Of a stretch of DNA of 34,545 nucleotides, positions 9,169-31,656 are shown in pieces. Both the position numbers and the translations under genes were made by a program. Below the pieces are notes generated by a model. That model searched no databases. It was not told where the DNA came from and worked only from the letters and a program-made list of their open reading frames with translations. How positions within the stretch are numbered: position 1 is the stretch's first letter; each line of letters starts with the position of its first letter. The DNA is from Gammaproteobacteria bacterium (GTDB taxonomy: Bacteria > Pseudomonadota > Gammaproteobacteria > GCA-002705445 > GCA-002716945), in assembly GCA_018670435.1 (NCBI GenBank), contig JABHRC010000017.1, positions 1 to 34,545 of the forward strand, read 5' to 3'.

Positions 9169-9567
9169 ATGTATGAAGTAACTGTAAGAGATAATTTATT
9201 TATTGCTCATAGCCTGAAAGATGATTTTTTTGGACCCGCAAAAAATCTTCATGGCGCAACTTATGTTATTGATTTAATTATAAGAAGCCATCAAATGACA
9301 GACAAGAATGTTGTTATAGATATCGGGCTTGCATCAGACTTGTTAAGTAAATGTATCAAGGTCTATAATTATAAAAATCTTGATGATTTTGAATTATTTT
9401 CTGGAATTATAACAACGACAGAGTTTATGGCTAAACAATTAACTACAGATTTTATAGACTCATTGAATGAAGAGAAATTTGATATAACTAAATTATATTC
9501 TATCAAGATGATTTTAAATGAGTCTCACATTGCTTCAGCATCTTATGAACAAAAAATTAATGAATGA
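9169..9567 (+). CDS. QueD/6-pyruvoyl-tetrahydropterin synthase-fold protein without catalytic triad
   Basis: A 132-residue protein with the T-fold pattern of QueD/PTPS: F-I-A-H-S-L near the start, L-H-G-A-T-Y, V-V-I-D-I-G, T-T-T-E-F-M-A and a final glutamate in N-E-S-H (Glu118). Of the three zinc histidines, His14 and His28 remain but the third is Ala30 (HGA instead of HGH). The catalytic cysteine position is Ala24, and the Asp-His pair is replaced by Asn67-Tyr68. The canonical enzyme elsewhere in the window (29389-29757) keeps all of these. The protein therefore probably binds a pterin-like ligand or catalyses a different reaction. It starts two bases after the dehydrogenase and overlaps the glycosyltransferase by four. 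Confidence 0.85.
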   Translation: MYEVTVRDNLFIAHSLKDDFFGPAKNLHGATYVIDLIIRSHQMTDKNVVIDIGLASDLLSKCIKVYNYKNLDDFELFSGIITTTEFMAKQLTTDFIDSLNEEKFDITKLYSIKMILNESHIASASYEQKINE

Positions 9568-28566: not shown

Positions 28567-29385
28567 TTAGTCTTTTATTTGGTGTATTTGAGCATATGCT
28601 GAATGATTATGTATAGATTCAAAGTTTTCAGACTCAACAGTATATTCACTTATCCTATCGTCATTAGAAAAATGTGCCGCAATGTCTCTAACCATGTCTT
28701 CTACAAATTTAGGATTATCATAAGCTAGTTCAGTCACATGCTTTTCATCTGGTCTTTTAAGTAAAGCATATAGCTCGGACGAAGCCTCCTTTTCCACAAT
28801 ATCTATAATTTCTTCAATCCAGATAAAGTCTTTAATACTTATGGTAACCGTTACATGAGATCTTTGATTATGAGCGCCATAGGCTGATATTTTTTTTGAG
28901 CATGGACACAAACTGGTCACAGGTACGAGAACTCTTACTTTCAGGTTTGAAACCTCATCTTTAACTTCACCAATAAAAGTTACAGTATAATCTAACAGAC
29001 TTTTTACTTTAGATGCTGGCGCAGTCTTATTTATAAAATAAGGGAATGTCATTTCAACATGACCTGACTCTGCTTCTAAAAGCACTAGCATTTCTGCTAT
29101 CATTTTTTTAAACGTATCCACAGTTATATGCTCATCATGATTATTTAGGATATGCACAAATCTGGACATATGAGTCCCTTTTAGATTATGAGGCAAGTTC
29201 ACATACATATTAAAATTAGCAACAGTTGTCTGCTCCTTTCCCGATCTCTGTTTAATGACCATTGGATGAAGTATGTCCTTTATACCAACTTTATTAATTG
29301 GTAAATTCCTTGTATCTTCTAGACCTTGAGTATCAGGTAAGTTTGATTTATTTAATTCTTTAATAGATTTTTTATTAGTAGCCAT
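28567..29385 (-). CDS. folE2: GTP cyclohydrolase IB (FolE2)
   Basis: FolE2 converts GTP to 7,8-dihydroneopterin triphosphate, the entry to folate and queuosine. The 272-residue protein has V-G-I-K-D-I near residue 32, [10 protein letters not shown], and the metal-site motif [18 protein letters not shown], with R-P-D-E-K-H-V-T near the end. The type IB enzyme is unrelated in sequence to FolE and works with metals other than zinc. It follows queD by three bases, so precursor and next enzyme are made together. It converges with bamC (one-base gap). Confidence 0.96.
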
Positions 29386-29388
29386 TAT

Positions 29389-29757
29389 TTATCCCGTGAA
29401 AGTTACTGCTGATTTATCCGTTTCCCATAGTTTTATTGATCTAACCTTTATTTGCTTATCATTCATTACTACAGTCAATTCTTTATGGATATACTGAGCA
29501 ATATTTTCAGCTGTTGGGTTGATTTCTTTAAATGGTTTCAAGTCATTCAAAAATTGGTGATCTAATTGATCCACAACACTTTTTGTCAAATTTCTTATTT
29601 CCTTGAAATCTATTACCATTCCAATATTATCTAGTTTATTTCCACAAACTTCAACTTCAACTTTCCAATTATGTCCATGCATTCTCTTACAGGCACCTTT
29701 ATGACCATTTAGGACATGTGCTGATGAAAATTCAACAAAAGTTGTTAAAGTGTAAAT
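29389..29757 (-). CDS. queD: 6-carboxytetrahydropterin synthase QueD, ATT start
   Basis: QueD turns dihydroneopterin triphosphate into 6-carboxytetrahydropterin for queuosine. An ATG start at 29682 would give only 97 residues and lose the first zinc histidine and the catalytic cysteine. The frame upstream stays open to the dxs stop, and homology begins at an ATT codon at 29755-29757, giving 122 residues beginning x-Y-T-L-T-T-F-V-E-F-S-S-A-H. A GGAG site lies eight bases before it. No ATG, GTG or TTG exists upstream. Ligands present: His14, His27 and His29 (zinc), Cys23, Asp66-His67 and Glu112 (catalysis). ATT initiation is the simplest reading; ATA at 29763 is a poorer alternative. Confidence 0.9.
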   Translation of the reverse strand: MYTLTTFVEFSSAHVLNGHKGACKRMHGHNWKVEVEVCGNKLDNIGMVIDFKEIRNLTKSVVDQLDHQFLNDLKPFKEINPTAENIAQYIHKELTVVMNDKQIKVRSIKLWETDKSAVTFTG

Positions 29758-29765
29758 ATCTATTT

Positions 29766-29769
29766 CTCC
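29766..29769 (-). promoter_or_regulatory. Ribosome binding site deciding the queD ATT start
   Basis: GGAG on the minus strand, eight bases before the ATT codon and four bases after the dxs stop. The spacing is ideal for initiation at ATT and too far upstream of the ATG at 29682 to serve it. Confidence 0.6.
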
Positions 29770-29772
29770 AGT

Positions 29773-31656
29773 TTATTTTTTATTAGTCATTTCTACCATG
29801 TTATGAACATGGTCATTAGTAGTTTTTTCAATGCCTAACTGATCGAGTCCTAATTCTGATAATATCTCTTCTTGACTGCCATGGGGTATTATCTTATCCG
29901 GAACACCTATCGTTATAAGGTTATTTTTTAATGAATACTTGACCATTACTTCATTAACAGCAGTTCCAGCGCCTCCTAGTATAACATTGTCTTCTACTGT
30001 AAATATATAATCATGAGTGTTGGAAATATCTATAATCATCTTTTCATCAAGAGGCTTTACAAATCTCATATCAACCACAGTTGCACCATTCTTTTTAGCT
30101 ACTTTTTTTACAATATTCAACAGTGTTCCAAAAACAAGATAAGCTATTTTATTTCCCTTCTGGACAATTTTAGCTTTTCCTATCTCTATGGTTGAATGGT
30201 CTAGGTTAATGTCTTGACCTTGACTATAACCTCTTGGATATCTAACTGCAGCTAAGCCATCATGCTTGAAACCTGTTGATAACATTTTCCACATTTCTAG
30301 TTCATTAGATGGAGTCATCAGAACTATTTTTGGAAGAATTCTTAGGAATGAAATATCATATATTCCTTGATGCGTCTCGCCATCTGCTCCTACTATGCCT
30401 GCTCTATCAATTGCTAGAAGTATATTTAAATCTTGTACAACAATATCATGTATTAATTGATCGTAAGCTCTTTGAAGAAAAGTTGAATATATTGCGATAA
30501 TTGGTTTCAAACCTCCACAAGTCATCCCTCCAGCTAATGTAATTGCATGCTGTTCTGCAATACCTACATCAAAATATCTTTCGGGGTATTTCTTTTCAAC
30601 CTCAACAAGCCCAGATCCTTCTCTCATTGCTGGTGTAATAACCACAAGTTTTTCATCTATGCTTGCAGCTTGATCTATCCATCTACTGAAAATTTGAGTA
30701 TATGTTAATTTATTATCAACTTTTTTACTTCTTGGTTTTCCAGTTTTAATATCAAATGGAGTTACGCCATGATATGAAATTGGATTTTGTTCAGCTAACT
30801 TATATCCTTTTCCTTTCTTTGTAATCACATGTAGAATTCTAGGACCTGTTTTATTTTTAAGATTTTTCAATACATCTATTAGCCCGTTAACATCATGCCC
30901 ATCTGTTGGACCATAGTATTTAAAACCTAGTTCTTCAAATAATAACCCCGGAGTTATGAGACCTTTTGCCTGATTTTCTACTTTTTTAGCTATATCTTCA
31001 ATTGCTTTTACCTTACTTAAAACTTTTTTACCACTTTCTTTGAAAGAGGAGAATGTTTTACCAGTTAGTATTTTAGTGAGATATTTATGAATAGCCCCAA
31101 CATTTGGGGAAATAGACATTTCGTTGTCATTTAGTATTACCAATATATCGGATTTAATTCCACCAGCATGACCAAGTGCTTCAAACGCCATTCCAGCCGT
31201 TAAACCTCCATCCCCAATTATTGCGATAATTTTATTATTTTGTTTATTTATTTTAGAGGCAATCTCATATCCTACTGCAGCACTGATAGATGTGCTTGAA
31301 TGCCCTGCTCCAAAAGAATCATACTCGCTTTCATTGCGTTTTAAGAAACCTGATATGCCATCTTTTTTCCTAAGGGATGACATTAAATTTTTTCTACCTG
31401 TCAATATCTTATGTGGATAACATTGATGGCCAATATCCCATACTAAAATATCTCTTGGTGTATCATATACATAATGTAAAGCTATTGTGATATCAACTGT
31501 TCCAAGACCAGCAGCTAAGTGACCTCCTGTCTTGGAAACAGATTCAATAATAAATTCTCTCAGCTCCTCTGATAGTACTAATATTTCATTTCTAGTGAGA
31601 CTTTTTAAGTTAGCAGGACTAGAAATCATATCGAGTATTTTATAATCTTCATTCAT
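29773..31656 (-). CDS. dxs: 1-deoxy-D-xylulose-5-phosphate synthase
   Basis: DXS joins pyruvate and glyceraldehyde-3-phosphate with thiamine diphosphate, the first step of the MEP isoprenoid pathway. The 627-residue length is normal. Visible: W-D-I-G-H-Q-C-Y-P-H-K (cofactor histidine), G-D-G-G-L-T-A-G-M-A (thiamine diphosphate/Mg motif), F-G-A-G-H-S-S-T-S, then F-D-V-G-I-A-E-Q-H-A with the conserved glutamate, and R-Y-P-R-G. It lies between xseB (two bases) and queD. The ispA gene that often sits between xseB and dxs is not here. Confidence 0.98.
   Translation of the reverse strand: MNEDYKILDMISSPANLKSLTRNEILVLSEELREFIIESVSKTGGHLAAGLGTVDITIALHYVYDTPRDILVWDIGHQCYPHKILTGRKNLMSSLRKKDGISGFLKRNESEYDSFGAGHSSTSISAAVGYEIASKINKQNNKIIAIIGDGGLTAGMAFEALGHAGGIKSDILVILNDNEMSISPNVGAIHKYLTKILTGKTFSSFKESGKKVLSKVKAIEDIAKKVENQAKGLITPGLLFEELGFKYYGPTDGHDVNGLIDVLKNLKNKTGPRILHVITKKGKGYKLAEQNPISYHGVTPFDIKTGKPRSKKVDNKLTYTQIFSRWIDQAASIDEKLVVITPAMREGSGLVEVEKKYPERYFDVGIAEQHAITLAGGMTCGGLKPIIAIYSTFLQRAYDQLIHDIVVQDLNILLAIDRAGIVGADGETHQGIYDISFLRILPKIVLMTPSNELEMWKMLSTGFKHDGLAAVRYPRGYSQGQDINLDHSTIEIGKAKIVQKGNKIAYLVFGTLLNIVKKVAKKNGATVVDMRFVKPLDEKMIIDISNTHDYIFTVEDNVILGGAGTAVNEVMVKYSLKNNLITIGVPDKIIPHGSQEEILSELGLDQLGIEKTTNDHVHNMVEMTNKK

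Follow-up and report, generated by a model that had tools for sequence, protein, structure and literature searches.

The window, by which we mean the whole stretch of 34,545 nucleotides of gammaproteobacterial DNA that was analysed, carries a queD gene whose frame offers no ATG, GTG or TTG ahead of its conserved His14, and the question raised by this locus is where translation of the gene begins and whether such a start belongs to one assembly or to a lineage. On the minus strand, dxs (29773..31656; TIGR00204, 833.5 bits), queD (29389..29757, 122 codons when counted from ATT) and folE2 (28567..29385; NF010200, 293.7 bits) stand in a row, dxs being the upstream gene of a probable operon and folE2 following queD after 3 nt. 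The ATT-started protein scored 111 bits against the QueD equivalog model TIGR03367, for which the cut-off is 89.25, and we assign the product on this basis as QueD, 6-carboxytetrahydropterin synthase, an enzyme of queuosine synthesis. The frame contains SSAH...CKRMHGH, i.e., the CxxxHGH motif together with an upstream histidine, both of which we take to have functional roles in QueD.

The dxs stop codon TAA (29773..29775, minus strand) is in frame with queD and precedes the ATT (29755..29757, minus strand) by 15 nt, and past this TAA the frame reads ACT GGA GAA ATA GAT ATT TAC ACT TTA. A Shine-Dalgarno (SD) core GGAG, read directly at 29766..29769 on the same strand, ends 8 nt before the ATT, and no ATG, GTG or TTG occurs between the in-frame stop and the codon of His14 (29716..29718), so that the ATT start, the spacing of GGAG and the absence of canonical codons before the conserved histidine are all as the original prediction had described them. 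The first canonical codon of the frame is the ATG of codon 26 (29680..29682), likely the wrong start that an automatic annotation would choose; the ORF opened by it (29389..29682, 97 aa) lacks both His14 and Cys23 (29689..29691) of the CxxxHGH motif, and its Pfam PTPS score is 116.9 bits versus 142.9 bits for the ATT-started protein. Judged from its frame, the window's queD can start only at a near-cognate codon, and the N-terminal peptide predicted for the ATT start is (M)YTLTTFVEFSSAHVLNGHK.

To place this start in its lineage, we compared 25 genomes of the order, all of one family and all from uncultured bacteria with small genomes. The queD start was readable in 23 of them, covering six genera, since one genome (G024) gave no queD match and another (G021) ended at a contig edge before the start. 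The results showed that the aligned start codon is ATT in 12 genomes, ATA in two and ATG in nine, with ATT or ATA in five of the six genera; the ATG carriers are G017 and, in genus g5, all eight genomes that could be read. The earlier proposal to compare the start region in related genomes gave ATT in all six other genomes of the window's genus, i.e., in all seven, and a combination of ATG in relatives with a read error at this site was not what the comparison returned, although ATG does occur elsewhere in the order in the proportion given above. In all 14 ATT/ATA genes no ATG, GTG or TTG lies between the in-frame stop, which is 1 to 11 codons upstream of the start, and His14, and ATT is the only near-cognate codon among those listed in four of the 14 (G003, G009, G015 and G019). 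Codon 14 is a histidine codon (CAT or CAC) in 23/23 genomes. Outside g5, codon 1 is ATN in 15 of the 15 genomes; codons -1 and -2 show no such constraint. Full-length relatives with 93% identity exist, and the protein differs by up to 36% among the 14 ATT/ATA species. Other queuosine genes occur in the same 25 genomes: tgt was found in 22 and queC exceeded its cut-off in 20, the window's genome being among them in both cases.

A run of codons free of canonical starts is by itself not rare and chance suffices for it, as the canonical start codons make up 4.1% of codons and a 30-codon run without one is expected about 28% of the time. The pattern goes beyond chance because the canonical codon is lacking in 14 out of 14 genes and the residues encoded ahead of the first one are conserved. 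For codons 2-25, the part of queD that a start at ATG26 leaves out, pN/pS was 0.056 over all pairs of the 7 genomes in the window's genus and 0.139 for the 14 ATT/ATA genomes, which marks strong selection at the protein level and shows that the stretch is translated. Together with the 14 ATT/ATA species, this selection on the N-terminus bears out the warning that a gene model opened at the first ATG would drop His14 and Cys23 and predict a dead protein. With regard to origin, 67 more distant queD loci were used as outgroups; apart from one truncated locus (L093), which was left out, in all 66 readable loci a canonical codon lies 20-32 codons upstream of the Cys, which indicates that ATG is ancestral. 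The tree requires two changes between ATG and non-ATG, and places a single origin of the ATT/ATA start at the base of a clade of 15 species, followed by a return to ATG in G017. By these alignments the near-cognate queD start is a conserved trait of that clade.

The ribosome binding site was then considered along with the start codon. SD duplex energies were computed with an assumed anti-SD tail, because the 16S 3' end GGTTGGATCACCTCCTT, with one mismatch allowed, was found in 0 of the 25 family assemblies (possible reasons are a variant tail, rRNA contigs absent from the assemblies, or stretches that were withheld), and 562 ATG genes of the relative G006 (median -2.3) served as reference. With this assumed tail, the SD of the window's queD has an energy of -6.4, stronger than 86% of the reference genes, and those of the 14 ATT/ATA queD genes range from -4.0 to -9.4, stronger than 71-98%. 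The eight g5 queD genes, all with ATG, have energies of -2.4 to +0.2, and G017 (ATG) retains its SD at -5.7. The distribution suggests that codon strength is exchanged for SD strength at queD, but on the tree the non-ATG start was gained once and lost once, so that the association of ATT with a strong SD counts as one independent contrast. A relaxed initiator tRNA was considered as a cause and dropped, the anticodon-stem core being ordinary: the core with its GGG/CCC stem was found exactly in 21 of the 25 genomes, and no match within 3 mismatches was obtained in G008, G015, G021 and G019. Folding of the window's queD start gave a z score of -1.70 for a 120-nt stretch and of -0.59 for a 60-nt stretch; alifold of 15 genomes found no common RNA structure around the start, and the relatives do not share the hairpin that the window's gene has at codons 4-10. 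With no conserved RNA structure, only the codon and the SD point to regulation.

To see how far other genes share this type of start, a scan from the stop to the conserved N-terminus was made between 780 kb of G006 and 800 kb of G007, one from the window's genus and one from another genus. It first flagged 262 ORF pairs, mostly antisense shadows; removal of the overlaps left 627 reciprocal-best genes, of which 30 were flagged at a looser cut, and judged by eye these were mostly conserved 5' regions ahead of a shared ATG. The clear cases were queD, infC and a sodium-dependent transporter, presumably of the NSS type, with ftsI as a possible one. At the top of the 627 genes stood queD, with 25 aligned residues (17 of them identical) that precede the first canonical codon of both genomes, and the transporter came second with 17 (14 identical); infC had 12 (6 identical). 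On this comparison near-cognate starts are rare but real in these bacteria, and old in three genes. The start of infC, behind GGAG, is ATA in 22 of the 23 family genomes and ATT in one (G002). As an internal control, the infC locus of the window's genome (L166, G000:C13:5659-6159) and its 22 relatives were near-cognate as expected, and the presence of such starts in the same genomes indicates that the translation machinery here uses these codons.

The transporter (L244, G006:C1:558330-559757; in the window's genome L247, G000:C8:11984-13411) carries ATT or ATA after a GGAG in all 21 family genomes in which the site is readable, the g5 genomes with their ATG in queD among them; G003 also has an ATG that overlaps the SD and could serve as start instead. 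Elsewhere in the class the transporter has a canonical codon in 27 of the 28 readable genes, which come from 29 new loci representing the best of the 62 genomes with a match. For ftsI (L292, G006:C1:399058 onward; L294, G000:C38:24922 onward), GGCAACAAGCTGAC is common to many genomes and a shared AAGGCAACAAGCTGACT, without ATG, precedes the conserved N-terminus in many; G013 has CAG in place of CTG, G008 has the CTG out of frame, and most g5 genomes were left unread by the pattern, so that a CTG start of ftsI is no more than a candidate. Cases flagged in one genome of the pair alone were judged by eye, and of these trxB and ftsI were followed through all genomes. The trxB gene has ATG in 21 of the 22 readable genomes and ATC in G007 only (L278, G007:C4:478171 onward), where GGAG lies upstream of it. 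A sialic-acid-synthase-like gene of G006 (named by eye; G006:C1:631449-632547, minus strand) has no canonical start, ATT or ATA being candidates, and its relative in G007 has ATG.

Taken together, we consider, with a probability of roughly 0.85, that SD-directed initiation with fMet at AUU or AUA gives full-length QueD from an intact gene. The position of the start, its conservation, the SD and the N-terminal selection come from sequence comparison. In the mechanism we propose, the SD just past the dxs stop would hold the 30S subunit at queD, and the ordinary initiator tRNA would pair imperfectly with AUU (with AUA in two relatives), so that the inserted residue is presumably fMet and the product would be full-length QueD with the N-terminus fMet-Tyr-Thr-Leu; ribosomes that end dxs, 1-23 nt upstream, probably add re-initiation. 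By analogy with the AUU/AUA sites of Staphylococcus aureus we infer that initiation at this AUU is weaker than at AUG, and infC and the Streptomyces gene sigR suggest by the same kind of analogy that IF3 represses it; given infC, pcnB, ccpN and sigR, attenuation together with IF3 sensitivity is likely. That such a start tunes queuosine supply, as had been suggested for this locus, is speculation, and the data do not single it out against drift with compensation; the strong SD of every ATT/ATA gene may just as well make up for the weak codon. Improbable in our judgement is a broader version, in which infC, queD, the transporter and perhaps CUG-started ftsI would form an IF3-controlled AUN set, so that the amount of IF3, which is itself translated from AUA, would set queuosine supply and transport along with translation capacity.

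The most serious competitor is neutral drift, in which ATG decayed to ATT or ATA in small AT-rich genomes where the SD and coupling to dxs suffice, and no regulation is involved; we give it a little less than an even chance. The single origin of the non-ATG start on the tree, the strong SD in all 14 genes with their short dxs gaps, and isolated cases such as the ATC of trxB in G007, which resemble decay, are in line with it. However, ATT/ATA was kept through 14 species despite the divergence of QueD among them, a single mutation would restore ATG and yet only G017 has done so, and infC and the transporter keep near-cognate codons in all readable genomes. Translational coupling, by which ribosomes terminating on dxs re-initiate so that the start codon of queD hardly matters, is possible as the main explanation, though we lean against it. 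The dxs stop is 1-23 nt before the queD start in the 14 non-ATG genomes, and in E. coli an SD is reported to lessen the hindrance of re-initiation by IF3 (PMC2268962). Against this, the queD genes of g5, which lie still nearer to dxs, abutting or overlapping it, have ATG without an SD, and the transporter has the same type of start, its region having been read in the 12 genomes where a stop closes its frame just upstream.

Three further explanations concern the reading of the locus itself. The ATA at 29763-29761, near-cognate and in frame upstream of the ATT, could be proposed as the true start, adding two residues to the protein, which is very unlikely as it is just 2 nt behind GGAG and the position holds ATA in only 4 of the 15 genomes outside g5, the others having ATC, GAT, AAG, AGT, GTA, GTT, AGG, AAC and even TAG; it was rejected as unconserved and too near the SD. 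A dxs-queD fusion through readthrough of the dxs stop has some appeal in the window, where the two genes share one frame with a single TAA between them, but the stops vary among TAA, TAG and TGA and across the 14 non-ATG genomes the gap takes each of the three frames, which refutes it as a general mechanism and leaves it scarcely credible. Finally, every sequence is described as coming from a metagenome or a single cell, so an error of sequencing or assembly, or a pseudogene in decay, has to be weighed; the probability of this is next to nil, since the frame is intact under the low within-genus pN/pS given above, and ATT recurs in 12 genomes that were assembled separately in several sequencing projects, which excludes a sequencing error.

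Compared with known systems, SD-directed initiation at AUU/AUA in queD is closest to that of infC, which in the same genomes likewise has a near-cognate AUN start (AUU, AUA or AUC in the known cases) behind a good SD. The two differ in that the product of infC is IF3, which itself is reported to discriminate against the codon in an autoregulatory manner (PMC5472188), while QueD is a metabolic enzyme. The statement that ATT starts are known mainly for infC holds as far as infC goes, and "mainly" is a little narrow in view of pcnB, ccpN, cvfC1, citZ and, with GTC, sigR. In S. aureus, ccpN (AUA), cvfC1 (AUU) and citZ (AUA) are reported to have conserved non-canonical starts with a strong SD, AUU/AUA reporters reaching, in poor medium, about 10% of the output obtained with AUG (PMC13009471). 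These genes share with queD both the conserved start and the strong SD, but they belong to another phylum, their starts were profiled with retapamulin while that of queD is read from genome comparison, and ccpN, unlike queD, encodes a regulator. E. coli pcnB, which is cited as a gene other than infC limited by its AUU start (Binns & Masters 2002, via PMC9410913), resembles queD in its start codon but is a different gene and does not encode a queuosine biosynthesis enzyme. Streptomyces sigR, again a gene other than infC with a non-canonical start, is described as repressed by IF3 in vivo (PMC5472188), but its codon is GTC and the purpose given there is stoichiometry with an anti-sigma factor. 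An excess of IF3 in E. coli is reported to leave canonical starts almost unaffected and to inhibit non-canonical ones (PMC2268962).

Among the titles and abstracts listed for queD and start codons, for AUU/ATT starts and infC, and for queD with folE2, none reports a non-canonical queD start, and by its conservation queD joins infC, pcnB, ccpN, cvfC1 and sigR as a further case of a conserved one. Very few bacterial genes with conserved AUU/AUA starts have been listed, and to these genome comparison, not profiling, adds a metabolic gene and a transporter. One practical consequence is that gene finders restricted to ATG, GTG and TTG would yield a QueD without His14 and Cys23 in these genomes, and queuosine synthesis may therefore be wrongly called absent or broken. 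The scan from stop to conserved N-terminus is transferable to other lineages, and the frequency of near-cognate starts becomes testable without cultures.

In relatives a weak second PTPS-like match was observed some 20 kb from queD. At about the corresponding place in the window there is a 132-aa ORF (9169-9567, plus strand), which adjoins dehydrogenase-like and glycosyltransferase-like genes (names given by eye) and may be a divergent PTPS-related protein.
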